Shown: one piece after another, positions 5,791-56,237 of the stretch
How positions within the stretch are numbered: position 1 is the first letter of the stretch
Layout of the letters: every line of letters begins with the position of its first letter
Assembly: GCF_900101335.1 (NCBI RefSeq)
Contig: NZ_FNKA01000003.1
Location: 248,001-312,000, forward strand
DNA: 64,000 nucleotides
Reading direction: 5' to 3'
Source of the DNA: Quadrisphaera sp. DSM 44207
Lineage (GTDB): Bacteria > Actinomycetota > Actinomycetes > Actinomycetales > Quadrisphaeraceae
Program-made: the position numbers and the translations under genes
Notes under the pieces: model-generated
Seen by the model: the letters and a program-made list of their open reading frames with translations, nothing else
Database searches by the model: none
What the model was told of the DNA's origin: nothing

Positions 5791-7281
5791 ATGCCGTTGC
5801 GCCACGACGCTCCTCGGACGGCCGCCCTGCGGATGCCCTCCCCGGTCCGCAAGCGGATCGCGACGGCGGGCGACTGGCGCTCCGACTACCTCGCGAAGAT
5901 CGTCCTGACCGACTTCCTCGCCATCACCCTCGCGACGGCGCTCGCCTACTTCGTCCGCTTCGAGGCGCCGTCGGACGGGCACCCGGACGTCCTCCTGTGG
6001 GTCCTGCCGGCCCTGCCCGTGCTGTGGCTGGGGGCGATGCTCACCTTCCGCGCCTACGAGGCCCGCTTCCTGGGGCTGGGCAGCGAGGAGTTCGACCGGG
6101 TCCTGCGCGCCGCCACCTTCGTGCTCGCCGCCGTCGCCACGACGTCCTGGGCCTTCAAGCTGGAGCTCGCCCGCGGGTTCGTCATCCTCGCCCTCCCGCT
6201 GGCCGCCGTGCTCACCCTCGTCAGCCGCTACGCGTGGCGGCGCTGGCTGCACGCGCGCCGCGCGCACGGCGAGTACACCCAGCGCGTCCTCGTCGCCGGC
6301 CACCGCGCCGGCGTCCTCGCCATGGTCCGGCAGATGAGCCGCGCCTCCTACCACGGCATGCGGGTGGCGGGGGCGTGCTTGCCCCCGGCCCTGCCCGGCG
6401 AGGAGGACGACGACGCGCTCGCCGCCCTCGACGTCCCGGTGCTCGGCACGCTGGACGAGGTCGCCGCGGTCGCCGCCCGCGAGGGCGTCGAGGCCGTCGC
6501 GGTGCTGCCCACGCCCGAGCTTGACGGGCCCACCCTGCGCCGCCTCGGCTGGGACCTCGAGGGAACCCGCGCCGAGCTGTTCGTGGCCCCCGCGGTCACC
6601 GAGGTGATCGGCCCGCGCGTGGCGATCCGGCCCGTGTGCGGCCTGCCGCTGCTGCACCTGCACCGCCCCGAGCTGACGGGCGTGCGCCGCCTGGCCAAGG
6701 GCGCCGTCGACCGCACGGCCTCGGCCGCGGGGCTGCTGGTGCTCCTGCCCCTCTTCCTCCTGATCGCCCTGGCGATCACGCTGGACAGCCGGGGCCCGGT
6801 GTTCTTCCGCCAGGCCCGCGTCGGCAAGGACGGCCAGGACTTCGGCATGCTGAAGTTCCGCAGCATGGTCACGGACGCCGAGCGCCGCCTGATGGACCTG
6901 CGCGAGCGCAGCGAGGGCAACGGCGTGCTGTTCAAGATGAAGGAGGACCCGCGCGTCACCCGCGTCGGGAAGGTCCTGCGCCGCTACTCCCTCGACGAGC
7001 TGCCGCAGCTGATCAACGTGCTCAAGGGCGAGATGTCGCTCGTCGGCCCGCGCCCGCCGCTGGCCAGCGAGGTGGCCCTGTACGGGGACGACGTGCGCCG
7101 CCGCCTGCTCGTCAAGCCCGGCCTGACCGGCCTGTGGCAGATCAACGGCCGCTCGGACCTCGACTGGGACGAGTCGGTGCGCCTGGACCTGCGCTACGTC
7201 GAGAACTGGTCCTTCGCGTTCGACTTCATGATCCTGTGGAAGACGGTCGGGGCGGTGCTGCGCAGCCGCGGGGCCTACTGA
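5791..7281 (+). CDS. Polyprenyl-phosphate sugar-1-phosphate transferase (WcaJ/exopolysaccharide initiator)
   Basis: Transfers the first sugar-1-phosphate onto undecaprenyl phosphate at the membrane, starting repeat-unit synthesis. The 496-residue protein shows four N-terminal membrane helices (about 36-55, 64-86, 105-125, 128-147), a CoA-binding-like Rossmann region (about 165-290), a fifth hydrophobic segment (311-331) and the bacterial sugar transferase domain with KFRSM (about 356), DELPQLINVLKGEMS and LVGPRP (about 417). Start ATG at 5791 has GAGGAG 9 bases upstream. It stands alone between rsmA and ispE, 8 kb from the polymer cluster, and has its own promoter with an operator-like palindrome. 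The sugar it uses cannot be told from sequence. Confidence 0.92.
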   Translation: MPLRHDAPRTAALRMPSPVRKRIATAGDWRSDYLAKIVLTDFLAITLATALAYFVRFEAPSDGHPDVLLWVLPALPVLWLGAMLTFRAYEARFLGLGSEEFDRVLRAATFVLAAVATTSWAFKLELARGFVILALPLAAVLTLVSRYAWRRWLHARRAHGEYTQRVLVAGHRAGVLAMVRQMSRASYHGMRVAGACLPPALPGEEDDDALAALDVPVLGTLDEVAAVAAREGVEAVAVLPTPELDGPTLRRLGWDLEGTRAELFVAPAVTEVIGPRVAIRPVCGLPLLHLHRPELTGVRRLAKGAVDRTASAAGLLVLLPLFLLIALAITLDSRGPVFFRQARVGKDGQDFGMLKFRSMVTDAERRLMDLRERSEGNGVLFKMKEDPRVTRVGKVLRRYSLDELPQLINVLKGEMSLVGPRPPLASEVALYGDDVRRRLLVKPGLTGLWQINGRSDLDWDESVRLDLRYVENWSFAFDFMILWKTVGAVLRSRGAY

Positions 7282-26716: not shown

Positions 26717-26746
26717 GCGGCATCGAGGAGCGGCCGGCGCCGCTCA
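26714..26746. terminator. Bidirectional hairpin containing both stop codons of a convergent pair
   Basis: TGAGCGGC (26714-26721) pairs with GCCGCTCA (26739-26746). The two 8-bp arms contain the stop codon of the beta-helix gene and that of the minus-strand TagF-like gene. No T-run is present. Confidence 0.45.
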
Positions 26747-39024: not shown

Positions 39025-40215
39025 GTGGCTGTGCTGGACGGGCGCGCCCCGGGTGGCGCGCACGGCCGCCTCAGCGTCGCCATGGTGGGCACGCGCGGCG
39101 TGCCGGCCCGCTACGGGGGCTTCGAGACGTGCGTCGAGGAGGTCGGCGCCCGTCTCGCCGAGCGCGGTCACGACGTCGTCGTCTACTGCCGCAGCTCCGG
39201 CGGCGGCAGCAGCGAGCGGCCGGCGACCCACCGCGGCATGCGCCTGGTGCACCTGCCCGCCGTGCGCGCGCGCACCCTCGAGACCCTCAGCCACACGGGC
39301 GCCTCCGTGGCCCACCTGCTGGCGCACCCCGTGGACGCCGTCCTCGTCTTCAACGCCGCCAACGCGCCCTACCTGCCCCTCCTGCGAGCGCGCGGCCTGC
39401 CCGTGGCCACGCACGTCGACGGCCTGGAGTGGAAGCGCGCCAAGTGGGGACCGCAGGGCCGGCGCTACTACCGCCACGCGGAGGCGCTCGCCGTGCGCCA
39501 CTCCGACGCGCTCATCGCCGACGCCGCGGGGATCCAGGACTACTACGCGGAGCGCTTCGGCGCCGAGACCACCCTCCTGACCTACGGCGCGCCCGTCATC
39601 GAGGGCGGCGGCGACCCGCAGCGCCTCGCGGAGGTCGGTCTGGTGCCCGGCGGCTACCACCTCGTGGTCGCGCGCTTCGAGCCGGAGAACCACGTCGACG
39701 TCATCGTCGAGGGCTACCGCGCCAGCCGCGCCGGCCTGCCCCTGGTCGTGGTCGGTTCCGCGCCCTACTCCGACGCCTACACCGCCCGGGTGCGCTCGCT
39801 CGCCGACGGCCGGGTCCGCTTCCTCGGCGGCGTCTGGGACCAGGAGCTCCTCGACCAGCTGTACGCGGGCGCCCGCACGTACCTGCACGGGCACTCGGTC
39901 GGCGGCACCAACCCGTCGCTGCTCAGGGCGGTCGGCGCCCGGGCCGCCGTCAGCGCCTTCGACGTCAGCTTCAACCGGGAGGTGCTCGCCGACGCCGGTC
40001 TGTACTGGACCACGCCCGCGGACGTGCGCGTCCTCGTCGAGCTCGGCGAGGCCGACGTCGAGGGCACGCGGCTGCGCGGCGAGGCGGCCGGGGAGCGCGC
40101 CCGCAGGTACGACTGGGACGTCGTCGCGGCCGGGTACGAGGACCTGTGCCGGCGCCTGGCGCGGGGGACCGCGGCGTCCTCGCCCGTCCGGTCGTCGGGA
40201 GTCGCTCTCTCCTGA
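39025..40215 (+). CDS. Glycosyltransferase family 4 (DUF1972-type), second copy
   Basis: 396 residues. MVGTRGVPARYGGFETCVEE and RLAERGHDVVVYCR define the DUF1972 lobe; the C-terminal lobe has VARFEPENHVDVIVEGYRAS, LGGVWDQELLDQLYAGA and HGHSVGGTNPSLLRAVG, typical of the rhamnosyltransferase-like subgroup. It shares the N-terminal block with the GT4 at 21020 but the C-terminal lobes differ, so the donors may differ. GTG at 39025 has GGAGG 7 bases upstream. A TACGGT -10-like box lies at 38870-38875. It begins a plus-strand run that goes to 46529. Confidence 0.88.
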   Translation: MAVLDGRAPGGAHGRLSVAMVGTRGVPARYGGFETCVEEVGARLAERGHDVVVYCRSSGGGSSERPATHRGMRLVHLPAVRARTLETLSHTGASVAHLLAHPVDAVLVFNAANAPYLPLLRARGLPVATHVDGLEWKRAKWGPQGRRYYRHAEALAVRHSDALIADAAGIQDYYAERFGAETTLLTYGAPVIEGGGDPQRLAEVGLVPGGYHLVVARFEPENHVDVIVEGYRASRAGLPLVVVGSAPYSDAYTARVRSLADGRVRFLGGVWDQELLDQLYAGARTYLHGHSVGGTNPSLLRAVGARAAVSAFDVSFNREVLADAGLYWTTPADVRVLVELGEADVEGTRLRGEAAGERARRYDWDVVAAGYEDLCRRLARGTAASSPVRSSGVALS

Positions 40216-40385: not shown

Positions 40386-43300
40386 GTGATCAGACGTCCG
40401 CGCCAGCGCCTCCGCACCCTGCTGGGCGCGGGTCTCGCAGCCACCGTGGCCAGCGCCCTGGCGCTGCCGGTCTCGCCGCAGCCGGCGTCCGCGGCGCCGG
40501 CGGTCGTCCCCTCGCAGCCCACCGTGAGCGCGGACGCGCTGCCCACGGTGCAGGTCGACGGCGTGGTGTGGGCGCAGGTCGTGGTGGGCGACCGGGTCTA
40601 CGCCACGGGCCAGTTCACCTCGGCCCGCCCGGCCGGTGCCGCGGCCGGCACCGGTGAGGTCGCCCGGTCCAACGTCCTCGCCTACGACATCACCACGGGG
40701 AAGCTGGTCACCTCCTGGGCGCCGAAGCTCAACGGCACCGGGCTGGCCATCACGGCGTCCCCGGACGGCTCGCGCGTGTACGTCGGCGGCTCCTTCACCA
40801 GCGTCGACGGAGCCAGCGCCTCGCGCGTCGTGGCCCTGGACGCCGCCTCCGGTGCCGTGGTCACGGCGTTCAAGGCGTCCGCCAACAACACCGTGCGGTC
40901 CCTGGCCGCGGCGGGCGGCACGGTCTACGCGGGCGGGTCCTTCACCGCGGCCGGGGGGCAGGCGCGCTCCTACCTCGCCGCCTTCCGCGCCTCCGACGGC
41001 GCGGTGACGCCGTGGGCGCCGCCCGCCGACGCCGCCGTGATGGCGATGACCGCGCCGGCGGGCACGAACGAGCTCGTCGTCGGCGGCCGCTTCACCACCC
41101 TCAACGGGCAGGCCCAGGCCGGGATGGGCGCGGTGGACCTGACCTCGGGCGCGACGCTGCCGTGGGCGGCGAACGCGACGGTGAAGAACTACGGGCCGGA
41201 CTCGGCGATCTACAGCCTCTCCAGCGCCGACGGGGCGGTCTACGGGACCGGGTACAACTTCTACGGGCCGGGCAACCTCGAGAACGCCTTCGCCGCCGAC
41301 GCGGCGGGAGGGGCCCTGCGGTGGGTCAACGGCTGCCGGGGCGACACCTACTCCAGCTACCCGGTGGGCGGCGTCCTGTACGCGGTCGGCCACGCGCACG
41401 ACTGCTCGTCCATCGGCGTCCAGCCGGAGACGAGCCCGCAGACGTTCCAGCGGGCGCAGGCCTTCACCACGGCCTGGACCGGGAACACCAACACCTCCGG
41501 CAAGTTCCAGGGCAAGCGCGCCAGCGAGGTCCTCCCGTGGCTGCCCACCCTGGCCGCCGGCACCTACACCGGCCAGTCCCAGGCCGCCTGGTCGGTCGCC
41601 GGCAACGGCACCTACGTCGTCCTGGGCGGGGAGTTCCCGAAGGTCAACGGCCGCGCCCAGCAGGGCCTGGTCCGGTTCGCCGTGCGCTCCGCCGCCCCCC
41701 GCAAGGAGGGGCCGCAGGCCATCAGCGACATGGCGCTCGCCGCGGACGGGCTCGCCGACGGCGGCCTGAGGATCTCCTTCGCGGCCGCGTGGGACCGCGA
41801 CGACCGCAACCTGCGCTACGAACTCCTGCGCGGCCCCTCCTCGTCGCCCGCGGTGGTGGCCCGCACGACCGCCGACTCCGCGTGGTGGAGCCGCCCCCGG
41901 CTCGGCCTGGTCGACCCCTCGCCCGTGGTCGGGACCGCGACGGCGTACCGGGTGCGGGTCACCGACCCCGACGGCAACACCGCCACCAGCGCCCCCCTCA
42001 CGGCGACGGCGGCCGCGGCCAGCGCCCCCAGCGCCTACCGCGACGCGGTGCTCGCGGACGGCGCGGAGTCCTACTGGCGCCTCGACGAGGCGAGCGGCAC
42101 CGTCGCGCTCGACCGGGCGGGCGCCGGCGACCTGACCCTGGACCCCTCGGCGAGCCGCGGCGCGAAGGGCGCGACGCGGGACGGCGACGCCGCGACCGCC
42201 TTCGCGGGGTCGGCGGCCGTGCCGGCGACGACGACCGCCCCGCGCCCGGGACCCCAGACCTTCTCGGTGGAGGCCTGGTTCCAGACCACCACCACGACGG
42301 GCGGCAAGATCGTCGGCTTCGGCGACTCGGCCACCGCGGCGAGCAGGAGCCACGACCGCCAGGTCTACCTGACCAGCAGCGGCCAGCTGGTCTTCGGGGT
42401 CTACCCCGGCGCGTTCAAGACCATCACCAGCCCCGGCCGGTACAACGACGGGGCGTGGCACCACGTGGTGGCCACGCTGGGCCCGGCCGGCACGGCCCTG
42501 TTCGTCGACGGCGCCCAGGTGGCCGCCGACGCGAGCGTCAAGGGGGCGCAGGCCTTCACCGGCTACTGGCGCGTCGGCGGGGACACCGTCAACGCCAAGT
42601 GGTCCGGCGCCCCCGCGACCGCAGCGCTCGCGGGCACGATCGACGACGTCGCGGTGTACCCGACGCAGCTGGCGGCCGCGAGGGTCGCCGAGCACCACCG
42701 CCTCGGCGCGACCGCCGGTGCCACCCCGACGCCCACCCCGACGCCCACCCCGACGTTCACCCCGACGCCCACGCCGACCCCGACGCCTGCTCCCAACGCC
42801 GCTCCGACCGCGTCGTTCACGGCGACCACCGACGGCCTCACCGCCGCCGTCGACGCCTCGGCGTCCGAGGACGGCGACGGCACCATCGCCGCGGTGGCCT
42901 GGGACTTCGGGGACGGCGCCACGGGCAGCGGCACCACGGCGAGGCACACCTACGCCGCCGCGGGGACGTACTCCGTGACCGTGACGGTCACCGACGACCG
43001 CGGCGCCACGGGGACCACCCGGCAGCCGGTGACGGTCACGGCTCCTCCGCCGCCCCCGGCGCCGGCGCCCGGCCAGGTGCTGGCGGCGGACGCCTTCGCC
43101 CGCACCACCACCAGCGGCTGGGGCCCCGCCGAGACCGGTGGGGCCTGGACCACGAGCGGGGGCACCACCGCGGTCACCGGCGGAGCGGGACGGGCGACCG
43201 TCAGCGCGGGCAGGACGTCGGCGTCGACGCTGGACGCGGTGTCCGCCACGGCGAGCGACGTGCGGGCCGCGGTCTCCGTCGACGCCGCGCCCACCGGGGG

Positions 43301-43703
43301 TGGCGTCTACGCCTCGGTGATCGCCCGCCGCGTCGGCACGGGCGGGTACCACGCCCGTGCCCGGGTCACGGCCACCGGCGCGGTCACCCTGGCCCTGTCG
43401 TCGGTGGCCTCGGGCACCGAGACGGTCCTGAAGTCCGTGTCGCTGACGGGCCCCGCGCTGGCGCCCGGCCAGCGGCTGCTGGTGCGGGTGCAGGCGGTCG
43501 GCACCGCGCCGACGACCCTGCGGGCGCGGGCGTGGGTCGAGGGCACCCCCGAGCCCGCGGACTGGCAGCTGACCGCCACCGACAGCACGGCCGCGCTGCA
43601 GGCCGCGGGCGGTGTCGGGCTCTCCACCTACCTCTCCGCCAGCGCGACCGCTCCGCTGACCGTCGCGTGGGACGACCTCGCCGCGACGACGACCGCTCCG
43701 TGA
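40386..43703 (+). CDS. Large secreted multidomain protein (beta-propeller-like, LamG, PKD)
   Basis: 1105 residues. Order: Sec signal peptide (LRTLLGAGLAATVASALALP ... ASAAPA); a propeller-like region of blades with VYVGGSFTSVDG, VYAGGSFTAAGG and LVVGGRFTTLNG (about 45-435); an FN3-like segment (440-540); a LamG/concanavalin-like domain (about 546-777, with AWHHVVATLG and DDVAVYPTQL); a Thr-Pro linker; a PKD domain (about 803-885, VAWDFGDGATG); and a C-terminal beta module (899-1105) homologous to part of the protein at 36885. Such parts bind carbohydrate or mediate contact. GTG at 40386 follows GGGGAGA. No catalytic site is recognised. Confidence 0.85.
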   Translation: MIRRPRQRLRTLLGAGLAATVASALALPVSPQPASAAPAVVPSQPTVSADALPTVQVDGVVWAQVVVGDRVYATGQFTSARPAGAAAGTGEVARSNVLAYDITTGKLVTSWAPKLNGTGLAITASPDGSRVYVGGSFTSVDGASASRVVALDAASGAVVTAFKASANNTVRSLAAAGGTVYAGGSFTAAGGQARSYLAAFRASDGAVTPWAPPADAAVMAMTAPAGTNELVVGGRFTTLNGQAQAGMGAVDLTSGATLPWAANATVKNYGPDSAIYSLSSADGAVYGTGYNFYGPGNLENAFAADAAGGALRWVNGCRGDTYSSYPVGGVLYAVGHAHDCSSIGVQPETSPQTFQRAQAFTTAWTGNTNTSGKFQGKRASEVLPWLPTLAAGTYTGQSQAAWSVAGNGTYVVLGGEFPKVNGRAQQGLVRFAVRSAAPRKEGPQAISDMALAADGLADGGLRISFAAAWDRDDRNLRYELLRGPSSSPAVVARTTADSAWWSRPRLGLVDPSPVVGTATAYRVRVTDPDGNTATSAPLTATAAAASAPSAYRDAVLADGAESYWRLDEASGTVALDRAGAGDLTLDPSASRGAKGATRDGDAATAFAGSAAVPATTTAPRPGPQTFSVEAWFQTTTTTGGKIVGFGDSATAASRSHDRQVYLTSSGQLVFGVYPGAFKTITSPGRYNDGAWHHVVATLGPAGTALFVDGAQVAADASVKGAQAFTGYWRVGGDTVNAKWSGAPATAALAGTIDDVAVYPTQLAAARVAEHHRLGATAGATPTPTPTPTPTFTPTPTPTPTPAPNAAPTASFTATTDGLTAAVDASASEDGDGTIAAVAWDFGDGATGSGTTARHTYAAAGTYSVTVTVTDDRGATGTTRQPVTVTAPPPPPAPAPGQVLAADAFARTTTSGWGPAETGGAWTTSGGTTAVTGGAGRATVSAGRTSASTLDAVSATASDVRAAVSVDAAPTGGGVYASVIARRVGTGGYHARARVTATGAVTLALSSVASGTETVLKSVSLTGPALAPGQRLLVRVQAVGTAPTTLRARAWVEGTPEPADWQLTATDSTAALQAAGGVGLSTYLSASATAPLTVAWDDLAATTTAP

Positions 43704-43726: not shown

Positions 43727-44437
43727 ATGAGGTCGGCCCGCTCCGCGCCGCGCGCCGCCGTCCTGGTGGCGTCCGCGCTCGTCCTCCTCACCGGCTGCGC
43801 CGGCGGCGAGGACGACGCTCCGGGCGGCGGCCCGGGCACCTCCACCTCGTCGGCACCGGCTGCGACGACGACCGCGACCGCGTCACCGACCGGGTCACCG
43901 ACGACGTCGCCGACCGGGTCGCCGACGTCGTCCGGGGCCCCGGCACCGGACGCGCCGTCGACCAGCGGCTCGCCGTCCGGCGCGCCACCGGCGGCGGGCC
44001 CGAGCACCGACGGCGGGCCGCCGCCGTCGACGGCCCCTGTGGTGGGGGCCACCACGCTCCCGCCCGTCGCGGCGGGGGACGCCGCCGCCTTCGGGGACGG
44101 CCTGGTGGCGACCGTGACCGACACGCAGGCGGTGCAGCTCGGCGCGTCCGGTCCCGGGGAGGTCGCCGGCCCCGGCATCGCGGTCACCCTCGTGCTGCGC
44201 AACGACACCTCCGCCCCCGTCGACCTCGGCGGCCTGGCCGTCACCGCCTCCACCGCGGACGGCGTGCCCGTCGACCCCAGCGACTCCCCGCCCGCGAGCC
44301 CGGCGCAGGGCGTCCTGGAGCCCGGCGGCAGCGCGACGGGCACCTGGGCCTTCTCCGACCCCGCCACGGGGGACGGGCCGCTGCAGGTGCAGGTGAGCTC
44401 GACCAGCTCGGTCTCCGTCGTCGTCGTGCAGCTGTGA
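43727..44437 (+). CDS. Lipoprotein with DUF4352-like domain
   Basis: 236 residues with a lipobox LLTGC (Cys24) after a basic n-region and short hydrophobic core, so it should be lipid-anchored outside the membrane. A Thr/Ser/Pro/Gly-rich spacer (about 30-100, with TSPTGSPT) is followed by a beta-sandwich-like domain (FGDGLVATVTDTQAV, VTLVLRNDTSAPVDLGGLAV, GTWAFSDP) resembling DUF4352. ATG at 43727 gives the neatest signal; a GTG at 43700, overlapping the previous stop as GTGA, is the other candidate. Its own stop overlaps the next GT4 gene in the same way, so it belongs to one operon with 40386 and 44434. Confidence 0.78.
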   Translation: MRSARSAPRAAVLVASALVLLTGCAGGEDDAPGGGPGTSTSSAPAATTTATASPTGSPTTSPTGSPTSSGAPAPDAPSTSGSPSGAPPAAGPSTDGGPPPSTAPVVGATTLPPVAAGDAAAFGDGLVATVTDTQAVQLGASGPGEVAGPGIAVTLVLRNDTSAPVDLGGLAVTASTADGVPVDPSDSPPASPAQGVLEPGGSATGTWAFSDPATGDGPLQVQVSSTSSVSVVVVQL

Positions 44438-45618
44438 CGCGCGCTCCCGTCCCGTCGCCCGCTCCCCGCGGCCGCTCCGGCGGCACCGTCCTGGTCGCCC
44501 ACCCCAGCCCCGACCTCTACGGCTCCGACCGCGTCCTGCTGGAGTCGGTCGACGCCCTGCTGGCCGCGGGGCACCGGGTGGTGGTCACCGTGCCGGCCGC
44601 GGGGCCGCTGGTGCCGCTGCTGGTCGAGCGCGGCGCGCAGGTCGTCCTGTGCGCCGCGCCCGTGCTGCGCAAGGACGTCCTGCGCCCGCGGGGGCTCGGG
44701 CGCTTCCTCGCCGGCGCGGTGCGGGGCGCGGTGCAGGGGCTGGGGCTCCTGCACCGCACCCGGCCCGACGCGGTGCTGGTCAACACGGTGACCATCCCCC
44801 TGTGGACCCTGCTGGCGCGGGTGGCGCGCCGGCCGTGCCTGGTGCACGTGCACGAGGCGGAGGCGTCCGCCGCGCCCCTGGTGCGGGTGCTCCTCGGCGC
44901 GCCCCTGCTGCTGGCGGACAGGGTGCTCGTCAACAGCCGCTTCAGCCTCGGGGTGCTGCTGGCCAGCGCGCCGCGGCTGCGCGGACGCTCGTCGGTCCTG
45001 GACAACGCCGTGCCCGGCCCGCCGGCCGTCGTGCCGGCGCGCGAGGAGCTGGCCGCGCCGGTGCGCCTGCTCTACGTGGGGCGCCTGTCGCCGCGCAAGG
45101 GTCCCGACGCGGCGGTCGAGGCCGTCCACCTGCTGCTCGCCGAGGGCGTCGACGTGCGGCTCGACGTCGTCGGCAGCGCCTACCCCGGGTACGAGTGGTT
45201 CGCGCAGCGCCTCGCCGAGCGCGCGGCCGCGGCCGGTCCGGAGCGGGTGGTGCTGCACGGCTTCGACGCCGACGTCTGGCCCCACCTGGAGCGCGCCGAC
45301 CTCGTCGTGGTGCCCTCCCGGACGGACGAGCCCTTCGGCAACACGGCCGTGGAGGCCGTGCTGGCCGCCCGTCCCGTCGTCGTCAGCGACACCAGCGGGC
45401 TGCGCGAGGCCGTCGAGGGCTACGGGTGCGCCCGCCTCGTGGAGCCGGGCAGCGCCGAGGCGCTCGCCGCCGCCGTGCGGCAGGTGCTGGCCGACTGGCG
45501 GGCGCACCGGGACGGCGCGCTCCAGGACGCCGCCCGGGCGGCGCGGCGGCACAGCCCCTCCGCGTACCGCTCCGCGGTGGCAGGTGCCGTCCAGGCCCTC
45601 CTGGAGGGCGCCCCGTGA
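44434..45618 (+). CDS. Glycosyltransferase family 4
   Basis: 394-residue GT-B enzyme. Seen: VLVAHPSPDLYGSDRVLLES at the N-terminus, VHVHEAEASAAPLVR, then the donor lobe VRLLYVGRLSPRKGPDAAVE and VVPSRTDEPFGNTAVEAVLA with the E-x7-E pattern. The DLYGSDRVLLE start is common among actinobacterial surface-polymer transferases. GTG at 44434 overlaps the lipoprotein stop; its own stop overlaps the GT2 gene. Acceptor and sugar are unknown. Confidence 0.9.
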   Translation: MTRAPVPSPAPRGRSGGTVLVAHPSPDLYGSDRVLLESVDALLAAGHRVVVTVPAAGPLVPLLVERGAQVVLCAAPVLRKDVLRPRGLGRFLAGAVRGAVQGLGLLHRTRPDAVLVNTVTIPLWTLLARVARRPCLVHVHEAEASAAPLVRVLLGAPLLLADRVLVNSRFSLGVLLASAPRLRGRSSVLDNAVPGPPAVVPAREELAAPVRLLYVGRLSPRKGPDAAVEAVHLLLAEGVDVRLDVVGSAYPGYEWFAQRLAERAAAAGPERVVLHGFDADVWPHLERADLVVVPSRTDEPFGNTAVEAVLAARPVVVSDTSGLREAVEGYGCARLVEPGSAEALAAAVRQVLADWRAHRDGALQDAARAARRHSPSAYRSAVAGAVQALLEGAP

Positions 45619-46529
45619 CCTCGGTGGTGGTGGCCGTGCTCACCTACCGGCGCCCGGACGACCTCGCGGAGCTGCTGCCCCTGCTCGAGGAGCAGGCGCG
45701 CGCCCTGCACCCGGCGGCCCGGGTGCTGGTCGTCGACAACGACCCCGCGGGCAGCGCCCGGTCGGTGGTGGCGGCCTCCGGCGTCGCGGCGACGTACGCG
45801 CACGAGCCGCGGCCCGGCATCGCCGCCGCCCGCAACCGGGCCCTGGACGAGGCGGGGGACGCCGAGGCGCTCGTGTTCATCGACGACGACGAGCGCCCCG
45901 GCGACGCCTGGCTGCAGCACCTCGTCGCCACCTGGCAGGAGACCGGCAGCGCCGGCGTCGTCGGTCCGGTGGTCTCCCGCGTCGACGCGCCGCACGGCCC
46001 GTGGGTGGCGGCGGGGGACTTCTTCCGCCGGCGGCGCCTGCCCACCGGGTCGCCGGTGGCGGTCGCGGCGACCAACAACCTGCTGCTGGACCTGCGCCGG
46101 GTGCGGCCGACCGGGATCTCCTTCGACGAGCGGTTCGGGATCAGCGGCGGCTCGGACACCCTCTTCACGCGCCAGCTCGTCGCGGCCGGCCTGCAGCTGG
46201 TCTGGTGCGACGAGGCCGTGGTCACGGACGTCGTCCCCGCTCACCGCGCCACGCGGGGCTGGGTGCTGCGGCGGGCGCTGCGCAGCGGCAACGGGTGGAG
46301 CCGGACCTCGCTCGTGCTGGCCACGGGTCGTGGCCGGCGCGCGCGCACGCGGGCGGTGCTCACCGCGCGCGGCGGGGTGCGCGCCCTCGGCGGCGCGGGG
46401 CGCTTCGCCTGGGGCGTGCTGTCCCGCTCCGCGCACCACCGGGCCCGCGGTGCCCGCACGGCGGCCCGCGGCCTGGGCATGCTCACCGGCGCCTTCGGCT
46501 CCACCTACGCGGAGTACCGCCGCGGCTGA
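45615..46529 (+). CDS. Glycosyltransferase family 2, first of a convergent paralogue pair
   Basis: 304-residue GT-A enzyme. Seen: VVVAVLTYRRPDDLAELLPL, VLVVDNDPAGSA, GIAAARNRALDEAGD, the metal-binding FIDDDERP (DxD) and the C-terminal GGSDTLFTRQLVAAG with WCDEAVV. Basic C-terminal region (GRGRRARTRAVLTARGG) may sit on the membrane. It is the last gene of the plus block, with a GTGA overlap to the GT4. A paralogue of about half-identical sequence lies head-on at 46579-47556, only 49 bp away. Confidence 0.9.
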   Translation: MTSVVVAVLTYRRPDDLAELLPLLEEQARALHPAARVLVVDNDPAGSARSVVAASGVAATYAHEPRPGIAAARNRALDEAGDAEALVFIDDDERPGDAWLQHLVATWQETGSAGVVGPVVSRVDAPHGPWVAAGDFFRRRRLPTGSPVAVAATNNLLLDLRRVRPTGISFDERFGISGGSDTLFTRQLVAAGLQLVWCDEAVVTDVVPAHRATRGWVLRRALRSGNGWSRTSLVLATGRGRRARTRAVLTARGGVRALGGAGRFAWGVLSRSAHHRARGARTAARGLGMLTGAFGSTYAEYRRG

Positions 46530-46532
46530 AGC

Positions 46533-46592
46533 CGGGCGCCGGCACCGGGGAGCGGCACCGGGGAGCGGGGGAGGGCGGTCAGCCGGCGCCCG
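46533..46592. terminator. Inverted repeat between the convergent GT2 genes
   Basis: CGGGCGCCGG (46533-46542) pairs with CCGGCGCCCG (46583-46592), 10 bp, around a purine-rich loop holding two copies of GGCACCGGGGAGC. The right arm lies inside the end of the minus-strand gene. It may stop transcription from both sides. Confidence 0.4.
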
Positions 46593-47556
46593 AGGCGCCG
46601 GACCCGGCCCCGCGCGGGCGGGCGTACTCGACGTACCCGTAGCCCAGGGCGCCGAGCACCATGCCGACCCCGCTGGCGACGTCGCACTCGCCCCGGGCCC
46701 GGTGCCCGAGCGAGCGGCCCAGCCGTCCCCGCACCGCCGCGGCGAGCCCCCTCGCCACCCGCAGCACGCCGCGGGCGACCAGCTCGGCTCTGCGCAGGAC
46801 CCGGACCGGGCCGCGCGCGAGCTTCACCTCCACCCGGCTCCACGTGGTGCCCGTGCGCAGGTTGCGCCGCAGGACGTAGCGCCGCGTCGCCCGCACCGCC
46901 GGGACGGAGGCGACCACCTGGGCCTCGTCGCACCAGCGCAGCGGCTCGCCCCTGGCCACCAGGTCGTGGGTCAGCATCGTGTCCGACCCTCCCGTGAGCC
47001 CGAAGGCGTCGTCGAAGCGGACGCCGAGCGCCCGCAGCCGCCGCAGGTCCAGCAGCAGGTTGTTGGTCGCCGCCCCGCGCAGGGCGGTGCCCGTCGGCCG
47101 CCGCCGGCGCTCGAACATCCGGCTCTCACGGACCCAGGGGTCCAGGGGGAGCTCCGGCGCCGAGACCGCCGGGCCCGCCACGGCCGTGCACCCCCACGCG
47201 CGCCACGCGCGCACCAGCCGCGCCAGCCAGTCCTCCCGGGGCACCTCGTCGTCGTCGATGAACACGATCGCCTCGGCATCGCCCGCCTCGTCCAGGGCCC
47301 GGTTGCGGGCGGCGGCGATGCCGGGCCGCGGCTCGTGCGCGTAGGCCAGGCCGGCGCCGACCCACCGCTCCACCACCGGCCGGGCGCTGCCCGCGGGGTC
47401 GTTGTCGACGACGAGGACGCGAGCCGGCTCCGGCGAGGCCGCCGCCTGCTCGAGCAGCACCGGGACGGCGCGCGCGAGCAGCTCCGGGCGCCGGTAGGTG
47501 AGCACGGCGACGACCACCGTGCTGGAGGGGCGGTGCACGTCGGCGTCGGTGCTCAC
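46579..47556 (-). CDS. Glycosyltransferase family 2, second of the convergent paralogue pair
   Basis: 325 residues, same layout as 45615: VVVAVLTYRRPELLARAVPV, VLVVDNDPAGSA, GIAAARNRALDEAGD, DxD in FIDDDEVP, ATNNLLLDLRRLRALG, GGSDTMLTHDL and WCDEAQVV. The identical blocks point to a gene duplication with inversion. The GTG start at 47556 overlaps the stop of the upstream polymerase gene (GTGA). It is the last gene of the minus-strand operon that starts at 50106. The different neighbours (a GT4 for one, a Wzy-like protein for the other) suggest different acceptors. Confidence 0.9.
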   Translation of the reverse strand: MSTDADVHRPSSTVVVAVLTYRRPELLARAVPVLLEQAAASPEPARVLVVDNDPAGSARPVVERWVGAGLAYAHEPRPGIAAARNRALDEAGDAEAIVFIDDDEVPREDWLARLVRAWRAWGCTAVAGPAVSAPELPLDPWVRESRMFERRRRPTGTALRGAATNNLLLDLRRLRALGVRFDDAFGLTGGSDTMLTHDLVARGEPLRWCDEAQVVASVPAVRATRRYVLRRNLRTGTTWSRVEVKLARGPVRVLRRAELVARGVLRVARGLAAAVRGRLGRSLGHRARGECDVASGVGMVLGALGYGYVEYARPRGAGSGASGAG

Positions 47557-48911
47557 GAGGCTCCTCCGAGGGCGGGTCGCCCGGGTCGCGGGACGTCGGC
47601 GAAGAGCAGCACCGCCAGGGGCAGCACGGTCACCGGCAGCAGGAAGTCGCGGTCCACGACGCCGAAGGAGACCTCGAGCGAGCAGGAGACCAGCAGGCTG
47701 ACCAGCGCGAGCGTCGGCCACGCCGACCCCGCGCGGGCGGAGGCGACGGCGCGGCGGCACAGCAGCACCAGCAGCAGCCCGGTCAGGCACAGGTGCACGA
47801 GCCCACCGGTGACCAGGACCTGGACCACCTGGTTGTGGCCGTGGAACGCCGTGCCGACCAGGGGGTTGGCGAAGCGGGCCACCGCGGCGTAGTGGTCCGG
47901 GCCGTGGCCGACGAGGAGGTGCTCGCGCCACGCGGCCAGGCTGAGCCGCCAGATGTAGCCGCGGTTGGAGAACGCCGCGTCATCCCGCGTGAGGAACGGC
48001 AGCAGCAGGGTCAGGGCGGTGGCGACGGCCAGCGCGCCGGAGCTCACGCAGGCGCGCAGGGCGGGTGAGCGACCCGACAGGGCCAGCGCGAGCAGCGTGG
48101 CGGCGGCCGCCGCGAACGCGGCGAGCGACGAGCGCGACGCGCTCCAGACCAGGGCGGCGGCGACCAGCACGACCAGCAGCAGGCGCCACCGCCGGCGCGC
48201 GACCAGGACGACGGCGGGCAGCCCCAGCACCAGGAACTGGCCGAGGTTGTTGCCCTGGGTGAACACGCCCACGAGCACGCCGCCGGGGAGCAGCTGCTTG
48301 TCCGGCTGGATGAACTCCCCTCTCACGGAGCGGAACAGGCCCTGCTCCGGGGCGACCAGCGCGACCGCCGTGCTGACCGCCGCCGTCAGCCCCGTCAGCC
48401 AGGCGAGGACGGCCAGGTCCCGCAGCGCGGGGCGCAGCACCCACACCGCGAGCACCAGCAGCGGGAAGAGCACGCTGGCCCGGTCGGGGACGTGGCCCGC
48501 GTAGAGGTCGCGGAAGACCAGGAACCCCCACAGCCCGAGCGCCGCGGCGAGGCTGCCCCAGCGGTCCGCCCGCGCGCGCGGCAGGCGGGTGAGCAGCACC
48601 CACAGGCACACGGCCGCCACCGCCCCGAGCAGCGCCAGCTGGCTGGCGGCGGCCAGGGCCGTCGGCGCGGCGCCCTCCTCGCCGACGGACACGCGGAACT
48701 TCGGCGCGGTGAGCGTCTGGAGGAGGCGGGGCACGACGACCAGGGCCCAGGTGGCGAGCACCAGCGCGAGCAGCGGGCGGCGGGAGCCGGCGCGCGGTGC
48801 CGCCGTCCCGCGGCCGGCGGCACGGTCCGCGGCGGGCCCGGGGTGCGCGGGGGCGCGCCGGGGCGCGCGCCTCGGCAGGAGCACGCGGTCACCGACCCCG
48901 CCGATGCTCAC
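47553..48911 (-). CDS. O-antigen ligase/Wzy-type membrane protein, second copy
   Basis: 452 residues, about 10 to 11 membrane helices, a polar N-terminal arm of 45 residues and a periplasmic loop with VGHGPDHYAAVARFANPLVG and AFHGHNQVVQV, the HN motif typical of the O-antigen ligase family. FTQGNNLGQFLVLGLP and SASRSSLAAFA are also family-like. It would polymerise or ligate lipid-linked glycans outside the membrane. The start GTG overlaps the stop of the cytidylyltransferase gene and its stop overlaps the GT2 start. Confidence 0.87.
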   Translation of the reverse strand: MSIGGVGDRVLLPRRAPRRAPAHPGPAADRAAGRGTAAPRAGSRRPLLALVLATWALVVVPRLLQTLTAPKFRVSVGEEGAAPTALAAASQLALLGAVAAVCLWVLLTRLPRARADRWGSLAAALGLWGFLVFRDLYAGHVPDRASVLFPLLVLAVWVLRPALRDLAVLAWLTGLTAAVSTAVALVAPEQGLFRSVRGEFIQPDKQLLPGGVLVGVFTQGNNLGQFLVLGLPAVVLVARRRWRLLLVVLVAAALVWSASRSSLAAFAAAAATLLALALSGRSPALRACVSSGALAVATALTLLLPFLTRDDAAFSNRGYIWRLSLAAWREHLLVGHGPDHYAAVARFANPLVGTAFHGHNQVVQVLVTGGLVHLCLTGLLLVLLCRRAVASARAGSAWPTLALVSLLVSCSLEVSFGVVDRDFLLPVTVLPLAVLLFADVPRPGRPALGGAS

Positions 48912-49327
48912 CCGTGGGCGGTGATCAGGTCGCGCAGCAGCGTGCTGGACGTGGTGTGCGTGTAGGGGAAGTACACGACGCGCACCCCCACCGCGGCCAT
49001 GCCCGCCTCCAGCTGGTCACCCTTGGGGGTGCCGCGCCAGTCGTCGCCCTTGAACAGGACGTCGAAGCGCAGGCGCTCCCACATCGGCAGCTTGTCGCTG
49101 CCGCAGTCGTCGGCCACGACGCGGTCGACGAGGCGCAGGCTGGCCAGGATCTCCGCGCGCTCCTCCAGCGGCACCACCGGGCGCCTGCCCTTGGTGCGCT
49201 CCACGACCTCGTCGGTCACCGCTCCGACGACGAGCTCGTCGCAGCCCTCCCGCGCCCGCCGCAGGATGTTCAGGTGCCCGATGTGGAACATGTCGAAGAC
49301 CCCGGGCACGTACCCCGTCACGCTCAC
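48908..49327 (-). CDS. TagD-like cytidylyltransferase (glycerol-3-phosphate or similar)
   Basis: Small nucleotidyltransferase of 139 residues. Seen: GVFDMFHIGHLNILRRA with the HxGH site, RPVVPLEERAEILASLRLVD, LFKGDDWRGTP and the terminal TTSSTLLRDL (the ISSTxIR-type motif). Family members make CDP-glycerol, CDP-ethanolamine or related CDP-alcohols. The start GTG overlaps the stop of the CDP-alcohol phosphotransferase gene, so this pair probably makes and uses one CDP-alcohol. It could also supply CDP-glycerol to the TagF-like enzymes; the two ideas are not exclusive. Confidence 0.88.
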   Translation of the reverse strand: MSVTGYVPGVFDMFHIGHLNILRRAREGCDELVVGAVTDEVVERTKGRRPVVPLEERAEILASLRLVDRVVADDCGSDKLPMWERLRFDVLFKGDDWRGTPKGDQLEAGMAAVGVRVVYFPYTHTTSSTLLRDLITAHG

Positions 49328-50106
49328 GCGCTGCTCCCGTCCTGCGCCCGCTCGAGGGATCCGACCTGCCGGTACCACACCACCATCGACGCCGCCGCCA
49401 GGAGCGCGAAGCCGAGGGCGAGGAGGCCGTAGGCCCACCGGAAGAGCACCGGCGCACCGAGGGTGACGAACAGCAGGCACAGCACGCCGTAGTCGGTGGG
49501 CACCGAGGCCGCCGAGCGCAGCGCGGAGTGCCGGCGCGCCTCGCCGGAGGCCACCGCCGCCTGCCCGTCGCGGGCGCCGGCCAGGCGGCGCAGGTGGTCG
49601 TTGAGGATGATCGTGAAGAACCAGGTGCTGGCCACCACGGCGAAGGCGAGCGGCACCAGCAGCCACGCGTCCGAGGGCGGGGTGGGGCTGCGGTGGGCGC
49701 CGACGGCGACGGCGAGGTGCAGCGCCGGGATCTTGGCGGCGTCGACGACGTGGTCGAGCCACTCGCCCGCCAGCGACCCGCCGCCGCGCAGCCGCGCCAG
49801 CTGGCCGTCGGCGGCGTCCAGGGCGTAGCCCAGGACCAGCAGCGCCGCCACGAGCAGGCCCGTCCACCACGCCGAGGGCCCCAGCGCCACGGTCGCGATG
49901 CCGGCCGCCGTGCACAGGGCCGAGGCGGCGGTGACCTGGTCCGGCGTCAGGCCGAGCACGTGGGCGCCGGCGGCCAGCCGGCGCCCGAGCGGGCGGTTGA
50001 CGAACCGCGAGTACGCCGGAGCCCCCTTGGCGCTCTTCTGCGCGCTCGACAGGCCGTCCAGGGACTGCCGGTACGAGGGCCGCGACGTCAGGACGGCGCT
50101 CCTCAT
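49324..50106 (-). CDS. CDP-alcohol phosphatidyltransferase family membrane enzyme
   Basis: 260 residues with about six membrane helices and a polar N-terminal arm of 45 residues. The full CDP-OH-P signature is present: DGQLAR, 8 residues, G, 3 residues, D, 3 residues, D (within DAADGQLARLRGG and GEWLDHVVD). Enzymes of this family transfer a phospho-alcohol from a CDP-alcohol or move phosphatidyl groups. ATG at 50106 follows GGGAGG. It is the first gene of a four-gene operon, all with 4-bp overlaps (transferase, cytidylyltransferase, Wzy-like, GT2). The context favours decoration of a polymer over bulk phospholipid synthesis; this is inference. Confidence 0.88.
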   Translation of the reverse strand: MRSAVLTSRPSYRQSLDGLSSAQKSAKGAPAYSRFVNRPLGRRLAAGAHVLGLTPDQVTAASALCTAAGIATVALGPSAWWTGLLVAALLVLGYALDAADGQLARLRGGGSLAGEWLDHVVDAAKIPALHLAVAVGAHRSPTPPSDAWLLVPLAFAVVASTWFFTIILNDHLRRLAGARDGQAAVASGEARRHSALRSAASVPTDYGVLCLLFVTLGAPVLFRWAYGLLALGFALLAAASMVVWYRQVGSLERAQDGSSA

Positions 50107-53091: not shown

Positions 53092-54843
53092 TCAGGAGCC
53101 GCAGGAGGCGGTGGAGACCTCCGCGTCGTCCACGAGCGGCTGGGTCAGCACGCGCTCGAGGGGGGAGGCGGCGCCGGAGAGGTCCACGTCGACGACGGTC
53201 TCGGCGTCGCGGGGGACCTGCACCTCGAACCGGGCGAGGGACCAGCCGCGCTCGGTGCCGGCGCTGAAGGCGACCGGCTGGCCGCCGACCCGCACCTGCG
53301 AGATGCCGCGCTGCGGCGGCACGTACAGCGCCACGAGGAGGGACTCCGTGGTCGCGGGCAGGCCGTCGACCTTGCTCGCGACGTACTCGGGCACGCGGGC
53401 GGGGGCGTCGTTGTGCAGGACCACCTGCATCGTCACCGGGCTCCCGGCGCAGCCGCCGGCGGTGCGGACCGCCTCGGTGAGGTAGTAGTCCAGCTTCGAG
53501 GCCGAGACGTTCGTCAGGTAGACCCCGGCGGTGTCCGGCGCGGGCTCGGGCAGGGCCCCGGACAGGCCGGCCCGCACGAGCGCGGCCTGCTCGTCCTCCC
53601 GGGCGCTCCAGGCCACCAGGTGCCCGTCGTCCGCGGCCTCCAGCAGCCCGCTCAGGCCCGCCGCGTCGAAGGCGCCGCCCCCCAGGGCCTCGGCGAAGGC
53701 CGTGCCGACCACCGCGGACAGGTACTCCTGGCGGGCGTCGTTGTCGGCGGCGAAGTCCTCGTACGCCTGGCGCAGCAGCACGTCGACGACGGTCTCGGCG
53801 CTGATGCTCGGGCCGCCCGGCACCACCACCTCGCCCTCCCCGGCCAGGAGGGGCGCGAGGCCGGAGGGGTCCACCGCCACGACGCCGTCCGGGGCGGGGC
53901 GCCCCTGGGCCTCCCACAGGTCGCTGAGCAGCAGGCCGGCGGAGGGGAAGTGGGGGCTGAGGTTGACGTTCTGGCTGTGGGCCACCTGCTCGGGCGGGTA
54001 CAGCGCCGCGTGCTCGGGCCCGAGGTCCCGCACGGGGCCCTCCAGGTCCTCCAGGTCGTCGTTGGACCCGGTCTGCTGCAGGGAGGTGCGCCCGTCCTCG
54101 ACGCCGACCAGCGCCCAGGCGCCGATGATGCCGCCGGTGGGGCGCAGCTCGGCGGTGTTCTGGAAGGCCACGAGGTAGGAGCGGGGCCCCTCGGCGCCCA
54201 GCGCCGCCGGCAGCACGGTCAGGGCGGACTCCGCCGCCTGCGCGGTGGTGGCCAGGTCGGTGACGGCTCCGCTGGCGGAGGAGACCGGGCCGGCGAGGGG
54301 GCCGGGCAGCCCCGCCGCGTCGACGCCCGCCATGCGCCGGCGCGCCTGCGCCAGGGCCGCCGCGGCCGGTCGCACCCGGTCCGCGACGTCCGCGAGGGCG
54401 GCGACGTCGACGCTGCCGTCCTCGCGCAGCAGGGCGCGGCCGTCGTCGGTGTCGATCACCACCCCGAGCAGGGGGAGCGCGCCCTCGCCGACGGCCTGGT
54501 CCGCGGAGGACACCGTCGTGCGCAGGGAGGCGACCACGCGCCCGGCGGAGCCGGGGGCGTGGGAGGCGAGGACGAGGGGCAGGGCCGACGCGGCGCGCTG
54601 CGCCCCGTCCAGCTCGGCGGCGGCCGCCTGCAGCGCCTCCCGCGCGGCGGGCAGGTCCTCCTGCTCGACGGCGGAGCGGACCTCCTCGACCCGGGTCTGG
54701 GCCGCCTGGGCGCGGGCGGCGGCGAGCGCCCCCGCGGCGGCGCCCCACCCGAGCAGGACGACGGCCAGCGCGCCGAGCCCCAGCAGCGCCCAGCCGAGCC
54801 GCCGGCGCGCGCGGCTGCCGGCCCGCGGCAGCCCGGCCGTCAC
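53092..54843 (-). CDS. DUF4012 family membrane-anchored protein
   Basis: 583 residues with one N-terminal membrane helix (LLGLGALAVVLLGWGAAAGA, about 20-40) and a large extracytoplasmic part. YLVAFQNTAELRPTGGIIGA, LSPHFPSAGLLLSDLW, VVAVDPSGLAPLL and YLTNVSASKLDYYL are hallmarks of DUF4012, common beside exopolysaccharide genes in Gram-positive bacteria. Its fold and role are undefined; a link with LytR-CpsA-Psr-like wall ligation has been guessed for the context but is not shown by sequence. The GTG start overlaps the stop of the kinase gene (GTGA), so the two are made together. Confidence 0.87.
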   Translation of the reverse strand: MTAGLPRAGSRARRRLGWALLGLGALAVVLLGWGAAAGALAAARAQAAQTRVEEVRSAVEQEDLPAAREALQAAAAELDGAQRAASALPLVLASHAPGSAGRVVASLRTTVSSADQAVGEGALPLLGVVIDTDDGRALLREDGSVDVAALADVADRVRPAAAALAQARRRMAGVDAAGLPGPLAGPVSSASGAVTDLATTAQAAESALTVLPAALGAEGPRSYLVAFQNTAELRPTGGIIGAWALVGVEDGRTSLQQTGSNDDLEDLEGPVRDLGPEHAALYPPEQVAHSQNVNLSPHFPSAGLLLSDLWEAQGRPAPDGVVAVDPSGLAPLLAGEGEVVVPGGPSISAETVVDVLLRQAYEDFAADNDARQEYLSAVVGTAFAEALGGGAFDAAGLSGLLEAADDGHLVAWSAREDEQAALVRAGLSGALPEPAPDTAGVYLTNVSASKLDYYLTEAVRTAGGCAGSPVTMQVVLHNDAPARVPEYVASKVDGLPATTESLLVALYVPPQRGISQVRVGGQPVAFSAGTERGWSLARFEVQVPRDAETVVDVDLSGAASPLERVLTQPLVDDAEVSTASCGS

Positions 54844-56237
54844 CAGGCGCTCCCCTCCTGCGGCAGGTCGCGACCGCCCGGCTGCGGCTGGGAGGTGTAC
54901 GAGTAGGTCCGGTACCCGTCGGCTCCCCGGGTGGGCAGCATCGTGAGGACCACACCGAGGACCGTCGCGTCCACCGCCGCCAGGGCCGCCAGGGCGCGCT
55001 CCAGCAGCGGTCGCCTCGTGCTGCCGCTGCGCACCGCGACCAGCACCCCGCCGACCACCTCGGCGAGCACCGCGGAGTCGGTGACCGGCACCAGGGGGGC
55101 GCCGTCGACGAGGACGACGTCGAAGCGCCCCTCCAGCTCCCGCACGAGCTTGGCCATCTGCTCCGAGGCCAGCAGCTCGCTGGGGTTCGGCGGCACCTGG
55201 CCGGCGGGCAGGACCGACAGCCTCGTCCGGTCGCCCCAGGGCTGCAGGACGTCGTCGAGCTGGGCGCGGCCGACCAGCACGGTGGTCAGGCCCACGCCCC
55301 CCTCCAGGCCGAGGTAGCGGGCCACCGACGGGCGGCGCAGGTCGCCGTCGACGAGCACGACGCGCGCGCCGGCGTCGGCGAGGCTGAGCGCCAGGTTCAC
55401 CGCCGTCGTGCTCTTGCCCTCCCCCTCGAGGGAGGAGGTGACGACCACGGACTTCGCGCCGTTGGTCGCCGTCGCGAACTGCAGGTTGGTGCGCAGCCGG
55501 CGGAAGGACTCCGCGAGCGGGCCCTGCGGGTCGTCGACGACCACGAGGGGGTGCCTGCGCGCGGACGCGTCCTGCGGGACGGCGGCCAGCAGCGGGACGG
55601 ACAGGGCGCTCACGTCCTCCTCGCCGCGCACCCGCGTGTCGAGGACCTCGCGCAGCAGCACGACGGCGACGGCGGCGCCGAGGCCGAGCACCAGCCCCAG
55701 CGCCAGGTTCAGCTCCTCGCGCGGCCACGCGGGGCTGCTGGGCACGACCGCGCCCTGGGTGCTCGTGATGCGCACCGGCGCCGCCGTCGCGGCGTCGGAC
55801 GGCTGCTCGAGAGTCCTGACCACCTCGATGAGGGACGCGGTGACGGCCTCGGCGATGGTCGCCGCCTGCTCGGGGGAGGGGTCGGTGGCGGTGATGTCGA
55901 TGAGGACGGTGCCGGCCGGCGCCACCGCCTCCACCCGCTGCGCCAGGGCCGCGGGCGTGGTCTCCAGGCCGAGGTCGGCGATGACGGGGCCGAGCACGCT
56001 CTGGCTGGTGGCGATGTCGGCGTAGGACTGCACCCGCGCCTCGGCGAAGTTGCCGCCCTGCAGCAGGTCCGAGCCGGAGTCGCCGGTCTGGGCGGAGACG
56101 AACAGCTGGGTCGTCGCCCGGTACTGCGGCGTGGCGAGGAGGGTGGCGGCGGCGGCGGCGGCCACGCCGAGCACGGTGATGACCAGGACCGAGAGCCACC
56201 GCTTGCGCAGGATGCGCATGTAGTCGCCGAGCTCCAC
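54840..56237 (-). CDS. Wzz/BY-kinase: polysaccharide co-polymerase with tyrosine kinase domain
   Basis: 465 residues in one chain. N-terminal Wzz part: DYMRILRKRW, membrane helix (about 16-38), extracytoplasmic domain, second helix (about 210-230). Cytoplasmic BY-kinase part: Walker A LEGEGKSTT (about 265-275), Walker A' VVLVDGDLRRP, Walker B VVLVDGAPL, and a C-terminal tail with three tyrosines (YRTYSY). It should set chain length and be switched by autophosphorylation, with the phosphatase at 50219 as a natural partner. GTG at 56237 follows GGAGGG by 7 bases; a minus-strand -10-like TACCAT lies at 56328-56333. Confidence 0.92.
   Translation of the reverse strand: MELGDYMRILRKRWLSVLVITVLGVAAAAAATLLATPQYRATTQLFVSAQTGDSGSDLLQGGNFAEARVQSYADIATSQSVLGPVIADLGLETTPAALAQRVEAVAPAGTVLIDITATDPSPEQAATIAEAVTASLIEVVRTLEQPSDAATAAPVRITSTQGAVVPSSPAWPREELNLALGLVLGLGAAVAVVLLREVLDTRVRGEEDVSALSVPLLAAVPQDASARRHPLVVVDDPQGPLAESFRRLRTNLQFATATNGAKSVVVTSSLEGEGKSTTAVNLALSLADAGARVVLVDGDLRRPSVARYLGLEGGVGLTTVLVGRAQLDDVLQPWGDRTRLSVLPAGQVPPNPSELLASEQMAKLVRELEGRFDVVLVDGAPLVPVTDSAVLAEVVGGVLVAVRSGSTRRPLLERALAALAAVDATVLGVVLTMLPTRGADGYRTYSYTSQPQPGGRDLPQEGSAW

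Follow-up and report, generated by a model that had tools for sequence, protein, structure and literature searches.

A CDP-alcohol phosphotransferase and a TagD-fold nucleotidyltransferase form a conserved pair in actinomycete polysaccharide loci and probably decorate exopolysaccharide with a phospho-alcohol

We analysed a 64,000-nucleotide stretch of Quadrisphaera sp. DSM 44207 (contig NZ_FNKA01000003.1, positions 248,001 to 312,000; hereafter the window), which has a G+C content of 76.4% in a genome of 3.2 Mb. Four genes stand in tandem on its minus strand, from position 50106 to 46579, and the first two, coding for a membrane CDP-alcohol phosphotransferase (CDPOH) and a TagD/RfaE-II-like nucleotidyltransferase (NTT), are a real, conserved two-enzyme module. 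We propose that these enzymes probably constitute a dedicated, CTP-driven pathway that adds a small phospho-alcohol to the lipid-linked unit of an exopolysaccharide made at a Wzx/Wzy-type locus. The genes of the tandem are as follows:

49324..50106, minus strand: CDP-alcohol phosphotransferase, CDPOH (260 aa, ATG start, GGAGG upstream; Pfam PF01066)
48908..49327, minus strand: TagD/RfaE-II-like nucleotidyltransferase, NTT (139 aa, GTG start; Pfam PF01467)
47553..48911, minus strand: Wzy_C polymerase/ligase-like membrane protein (452 aa, GTG start; Pfam PF04932)
46579..47556, minus strand: GT2 glycosyltransferase (325 aa, GTG start; Pfam PF00535)

Read directly, each of the three junctions is a GTGA, that is, the 4-base overlap described in the initial annotation of this DNA. 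The codon bias of the tandem is real, as is the tandem itself, and all four products pass their Pfam cut-offs: CDP-OH_P_transf on CDPOH (30.7 bits, cut-off 22), CTP_transf_like on NTT (61.1 bits, cut-off 21), Wzy_C on the 47553 protein (46.9 bits, cut-off 31.7) and Glycos_transf_2 on the 46579 protein (54.2 bits, cut-off 23.3). We rejected the length of the overlaps as evidence for a special unit, since 4 bases is the usual coupling in the window; of the 35 pairs of adjacent genes on one strand, 12 overlap, and in 10 of these the overlap is exactly 4 bases.

Profile searches with both enzymes were run against 395 Actinomycetes genomes, and calls were made across clean score gaps (CDPOH at 199 bits or more, next match 71; NTT at 178 bits or more, next match 105). 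CDPOH was detected in 50 genomes and NTT in 56, and every one of the 50 CDPOH genomes also carries NTT (Fisher p = 3.7e-57). A pair scattered in relatives had been named beforehand as the outcome that would count against coupling; it did not occur, and the proposed link between a cytidylyltransferase and a CDP-alcohol phosphotransferase is borne out as a genuine functional pair. Pair-bearing genomes are spread over 12 families. Among 198 genomes sampled from the phylum, matches were confined to the class. At least 565 CDPOH relatives came up when the GTDB genome collection was scanned, and the genomes concerned include Streptomyces, Geodermatophilus relatives, Clavibacter, Arthrobacter and oral Actinomyces. 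Within the best-sampled genus (39 listed genomes), 19 genomes have both genes, 20 have neither and none has one only (chance 1.5e-11 if independent), and the co-occurrence is therefore not merely shared ancestry. A mirror-tree (distance-matrix) comparison of CDPOH with NTT gave r = 0.64 but was uninformative, as the housekeeping genes rplY and pth correlate better with CDPOH. The two genes lie within 20 kb of each other in 44 of the 50 genomes and within 400 bases in 28; of the remaining six, four are drafts with the genes on separate contigs, and in two the distance is about 2 Mb. With few exceptions the close pairs sit in a polysaccharide locus of the Wzx/Wzy type.

Genes called around CDPOH at 87 non-duplicate loci placed the pair in a glycan setting, as had been supposed: at least one glycan-assembly family lies within 10 kb in 83 of them. 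The 4-base overlap of CDPOH with NTT recurs in 14 loci, and NTT falls inside the fetched stretch in 48. Other neighbours are a secreted beta-propeller/LamG/PKD protein (PROP, 57 loci), a DUF1972 GT4 glycosyltransferase (50), a WbaP-type sugar-1-phosphate transferase (PGT, 45), a second GT4 enzyme (37), a DUF4232-like protein (33), GT2 enzymes (26) and a Wzz/BY-kinase (20); TagF genes are not among the families conserved at these loci. The initial annotation had gone further and counted the Wzy-like protein and the GT2 enzyme as members of a four-gene pathway, which overreads the local operon order. As a conserved system the four-gene block was rejected, since none of 87 other CDPOH loci has the four genes side by side; a Wzy protein of the family seen in the window is encoded in just five, and the GT2 family, common as it is, does not adjoin the pair. 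The conserved module is the two enzymes, CDPOH and NTT.

Some further features of these neighbourhoods were recorded. PROP, the commonest neighbour family, is often present in two or more copies and might serve to anchor or bind the polysaccharide. In Actinomyces oris (locus L131, NZ_CP116225.1), genes for CDPOH, NTT, PGT, DUF1972 and LamG proteins are found together on a replicon of 415 kb that is annotated as a plasmid; the same replicon carries prs, thrC and trxAB and may be misassembled or a piece of a secondary chromosome. At three CDPOH/NTT-type loci (L134:11802-13801, L143:7332-9376, L042:15336-17299), a GFO/IDH/MocA oxidoreductase gene is followed by a gene for a protein of about 300 aa; two of these proteins were run against Pfam and matched nothing.

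NTT shows the HxGH motif and the fold of the CTP_transf_like family (PF01467), together with KGDDWxGT, as in TagD and Fom1, and PYTxxxSST, as in Fom1. Its AlphaFold2 model (predicted local distance difference test score, pLDDT, 92) gave template-modelling (TM) scores of 0.81/0.88 to TagD (1coz) and 0.79/0.86 to the cytidylyltransferase of Fom1. Among solved proteins, its sequence comes closest to PCYT2, TagD and the Fom1 cytidylyltransferase, the best match being human phosphoethanolamine cytidylyltransferase (PCYT2). NTT is probably a CTP:phospho-alcohol cytidylyltransferase. It reaches the cut-off of no curated NCBIfam equivalog, scoring 73.6 bits on the TagD model TIGR01518 (cut-off 165.4) and 80 bits on its top NCBIfam match, the RfaE domain II model TIGR02199 (rfaE_dom_II; cut-off 181.5).

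LicD enzymes use CDP-alcohols as donors and transfer the phospho-alcohol part to glycans or glycolipids. Six genomes carry NTT without CDPOH, and in four of these a 4-base overlap joins it to a LicD-like gene. This gene has the motif GALLGAIRDGxMIAHDSDTD and is fused to a methyltransferase-like domain; its product passes the Pfam LicD cut-off and gives a weak match to the LicD-like cholinephosphotransferase Mf1 model. Units of NTT, the LicD-like/methyltransferase gene and a small gene were seen in one genus (L132:2841-5088, L133, L135, L136), the small gene being DUF6752 in the one scanned. In the Lic logic, a phospho-alcohol or phosphonate is activated with CTP and then transferred to a surface glycan (PMC6697681). 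The Lic/Pnt tailoring systems (LicC-LicD, PntC) resemble the CDPOH-NTT pair in this order of events, and a LicD-like partner takes the place of CDPOH in some genomes. However, LicC and PntC are MobA-like whereas NTT is folded like TagD, the transferase of the pair is an integral CDP-alcohol phosphotransferase, and the Quadrisphaera genome has no LicD match and yielded no PEP mutase (Ppm) motif.

The RfaE-II match would suit a different assignment, in which NTT, as an RfaE-II-like enzyme, transfers an adenylyl or other nucleotidyl group to a sugar phosphate and supplies a nucleoside diphosphate sugar, and CDPOH uses another donor. We consider this quite unlikely in view of the exact pairing of NTT with CDPOH, of the KGDDW and PYTxxxSST motifs, which match TagD and Fom1 and not the lipopolysaccharide-core-type protein 3glv, and of the LicD-like replacement partner, likewise a CDP-alcohol user.

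CDPOH conforms to the CDP-alcohol phosphotransferase superfamily signature (PF01066), DG-x2-AR-x8-G-x3-D-x3-D. Its motif D97xxDGxxARx8Gx3D118xxxD122 is intact, and the signature residues are invariant in 60 of 60 sequences. Equally invariant (60/60) are Glu115 and His119 (GExxDHxxxD), the Glu-His pair of the CEPT/CHPT enzymes; in the printed alignment, E115/H119 fall on E129/H133 of CHPT1. The CHPT1 pair is proposed to be catalytic, activating the acceptor hydroxyl, and is described as absent from most bacterial CDP-alcohol phosphotransferases (PMC10182977). A catalytic role has also been proposed for the counterpart in CEPT1, E151/H155 (PMC10156783). In PgsA, ClsA and PIPS of the Quadrisphaera genome, the His position is occupied by P, P and S, respectively.

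We also looked at whether CDPOH is a plain phospholipid synthase. A role in making phosphatidylglycerol, cardiolipin or phosphatidylinositol was rejected, since dedicated genes are present and CDPOH lies below all curated cut-offs. The genome encodes PgsA, ClsA and PIPS above NCBIfam cut-offs, and a Pcs-like protein, all away from the pair, and CDPOH is distinct from these separate synthases. On the curated models for phosphatidylinositol phosphate (PIP) and archaetidylinositol phosphate synthases, CDPOH scores 34.5 against a cut-off of 170 and 42.4 against 180, whereas the genome's own PIPS scores 244. For a reading of the acceptor site CDPOH was aligned to PIP synthase; the profile alignment reaches only the N-terminal half, and the reading stops at the third transmembrane helix.

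The Glu-His pair of CDPOH and the PCYT2 likeness of NTT would both fit a Kennedy-type bacterial phospholipid pathway, in which NTT makes CDP-ethanolamine or a similar compound, CDPOH serves diacylglycerol and the polysaccharide setting is incidental. The Kennedy pathway itself (PCYT2 with CEPT1/CHPT1) combines a cytidylyltransferase with a CDP-alcohol phosphotransferase bearing this pair. However, its acceptor is diacylglycerol and its transferases have extra helices, whereas CDPOH is compact and lies in a glycan locus. Lipid-acceptor enzymes of the superfamily typically carry three to four extra C-terminal helices (PMC4634129). The AlphaFold2 model of the 260-aa CDPOH (pLDDT 91.8) has one juxtamembrane and six further helices, the chain ends with the sixth, and the extra helices of the CEPT/CHPT type are not present. 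The glycan character of 83 of 87 loci and the patchy presence of the pair within genera, unlike that of a core lipid pathway, also speak against a Kennedy-type role, which we regard as unlikely.

A Foldseek search with the CDPOH model returned AF2299, IPCT-DIPPS and PIP synthases as the best structures, and AF2299 of Archaeoglobus fulgidus (PDB 4o6m/4o6n/4q7c) is the best match in both fold and sequence. AF2299 consists of a cytosolic cytidylyltransferase-like domain fused to a CDP-alcohol phosphotransferase, and it binds CDP-glycerol (PMC4634129). Here, too, a cytidylyltransferase-like part is paired with a six-helix transferase, and in one relative (G057) CDPOH is even fused to an N-terminal NTT-like domain that lacks the HxGH residues (L043:9617-10777) and is followed, with a 4-base overlap, by an intact NTT gene. 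In another genome (G263), the degenerate domain is a separate gene (L143:9534-9923), the order being degenerate NTT, CDPOH, NTT. The degenerate domain, like the cytosolic domain of AF2299, is likely to be a pseudoenzyme partner. AF2299 differs from CDPOH in lacking the Glu and His of GExxDH, is only about 20% identical to it, and has no polysaccharide locus described in PMC4634129.

Since AF2299 and IPCT-DIPPS have cytidylyltransferase-like domains and soluble substrates, they would suit, as would the six-helix architecture of CDPOH, a pathway making a soluble small phosphodiester (compare di-myo-inositol-phosphate synthesis) with no glycan decoration. We judge this very unlikely, as neither the glycan context nor the LicD-like replacement would be expected, and inositol-1-phosphate synthase was not found in 8 of the 50 pair genomes (G048, G219, G238, G247, G382, G390 and G427, each listed with no match, and G263, not among the matches listed). 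The missing synthase also means that inositol-1-phosphate is not a general substrate, unless imported, and as a universal one it is disfavoured. A phosphonate is disfavoured as well, since the Ppm motif EDKx5NS is absent from the genome's PF13714 matches. Fom1 of the fosfomycin pathway shares GDDW, PYTxxxSST and the fold (TM 0.86) with NTT; it differs in that NTT has no PEP mutase fusion and the genome no such motif. The loci share no conserved enzyme that makes an alcohol phosphate, in keeping with a substrate that is a universal metabolite, for instance glycerol 3-phosphate, or phosphoethanolamine. Glycerol 3-phosphate is our tentative first choice for the compound activated by NTT; phosphoethanolamine, and to the same degree some other compound, are lesser possibilities.

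Between glmU-prs-rplY and mfd, at roughly 15-56 kb of the window, lies a large region of polysaccharide genes. Apart from the tandem, the features of the window that belong to families found around CDPOH are:

5833..7281, plus strand: WbaP-type sugar-1-phosphate transferase, PGT (Pfam PF02397, 233 bits), upstream of the 15-56 kb region
39031..40215, plus strand: DUF1972 GT4 glycosyltransferase, GT4a (Pfam PF09314), in relatives often overlapping CDPOH by 4 bases
40386..43703, plus strand: secreted beta-propeller/LamG/PKD protein, PROP (Pfam LamG, PKD, Rax2)
44039..44437, plus strand: DUF4232-like protein (Pfam match at cut-off)
44434..45618, plus strand: GT4 glycosyltransferase, GT4b (Pfam)
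45615..46529, plus strand: paralogous GT2 glycosyltransferase (PF00535), convergent with the operon and in the same sequence cluster as the 46579 gene
54840..56237, minus strand: Wzz/BY-kinase (Wzc-like) chain-length regulator (Pfam Wzz and AAA)

The region also holds Wzx (31745), two Wzy_C proteins (19614 and 47553) and several GT4 and GT2 enzymes. With PGT, glycosyltransferases, Wzx, Wzy_C and Wzz/BY-kinase all present, the window has the make-up of a Wzx/Wzy-dependent polysaccharide locus. TagF-type (Glyphos_transf) genes and an IspD-SDR fusion were seen at 16897-19460, 26744-28072, 33331-35202 and 30232-31725 (three TagF-type strong, one weak); the fusion resembles a ribitol-phosphate cytidylyltransferase/reductase, and taken together these genes look like a second route, of the teichoic acid type, within the cluster. 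The pair had been described as separate from the TagF route, and the TagF genes indeed lie elsewhere in the cluster. NTT shares the TagD fold of the wall teichoic acid TagD/TagF system (TM 0.88 to 1coz); CDPOH, in contrast, is not a Glyphos_transf enzyme of the TagF type. The cluster also encodes a protein that resembles polysaccharide lyase family 14 and contains a disordered repeat (36993-38801).

The pair is observed, as are its coupling in the genomes, the intact motifs of both enzymes and the glycan context; the substrate, the acceptor and the direction of the reaction are what we infer. In the pathway that we favour, cytosolic NTT would convert CTP and a small, commonly available phospho-alcohol to a CDP-alcohol. 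Membrane-bound CDPOH would hold two metals on its four Asp residues, and His119 and Glu115 would activate the acceptor hydroxyl, so that the phospho-alcohol would be attached, at the cytosolic face, to one sugar in the repeat carried by undecaprenyl diphosphate. The decorated repeat would then be flipped by Wzx, polymerised by Wzy (here encoded in the same operon) and exported. A dedicated pathway of phospho-alcohol addition to a glycan, as first suggested from this DNA, thus finds support for the CDPOH-NTT pair in glycan loci, with its chemistry inferred, and none for the Wzy-like and GT2 proteins.

Several observations weigh against this pathway. CDPOH and NTT are about 2 Mb apart in two genomes. 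ATP or a sugar phosphate could be a substrate of NTT, whose RfaE-II score is slightly above that for TagD (80 against 73.6, both far below cut-off). The Pfam LicD match spans only about 30 residues, and the NTT-LicD units sit outside polysaccharide loci; the argument from LicD replacement is made weaker by this, though not abolished. Finally, the conserved neighbours of the pair include no enzyme that makes a phospho-alcohol, hence no genomic clue fixes the alcohol.

We found no description of the CDPOH-NTT pair in the literature searched, which was chiefly open-licence, so that absence of a description is not proven. The chemical logic is known (Lic, Pnt, Kennedy), and the combination of enzymes is one not found described in that literature. 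We lean slightly towards a widespread actinomycete pathway in which a TagD-fold cytidylyltransferase acts with a bacterial CDP-alcohol phosphotransferase bearing a eukaryote-like Glu-His pair, this membrane enzyme doing the job of LicD or TagF on lipid-linked exopolysaccharide.

When surface glycans carry phospho-alcohols, this affects charge, adhesion and recognition by phages or the immune system, and the known bacterial routes to such decoration use LicD- or TagF-type transferases. If our proposal is true, the CDP-alcohol phosphotransferase family, known for phospholipids and soluble phosphodiesters, would enter polysaccharide chemistry, and the CDPOH-NTT pair would be a marker for phosphorylated exopolysaccharides in hundreds of genomes.

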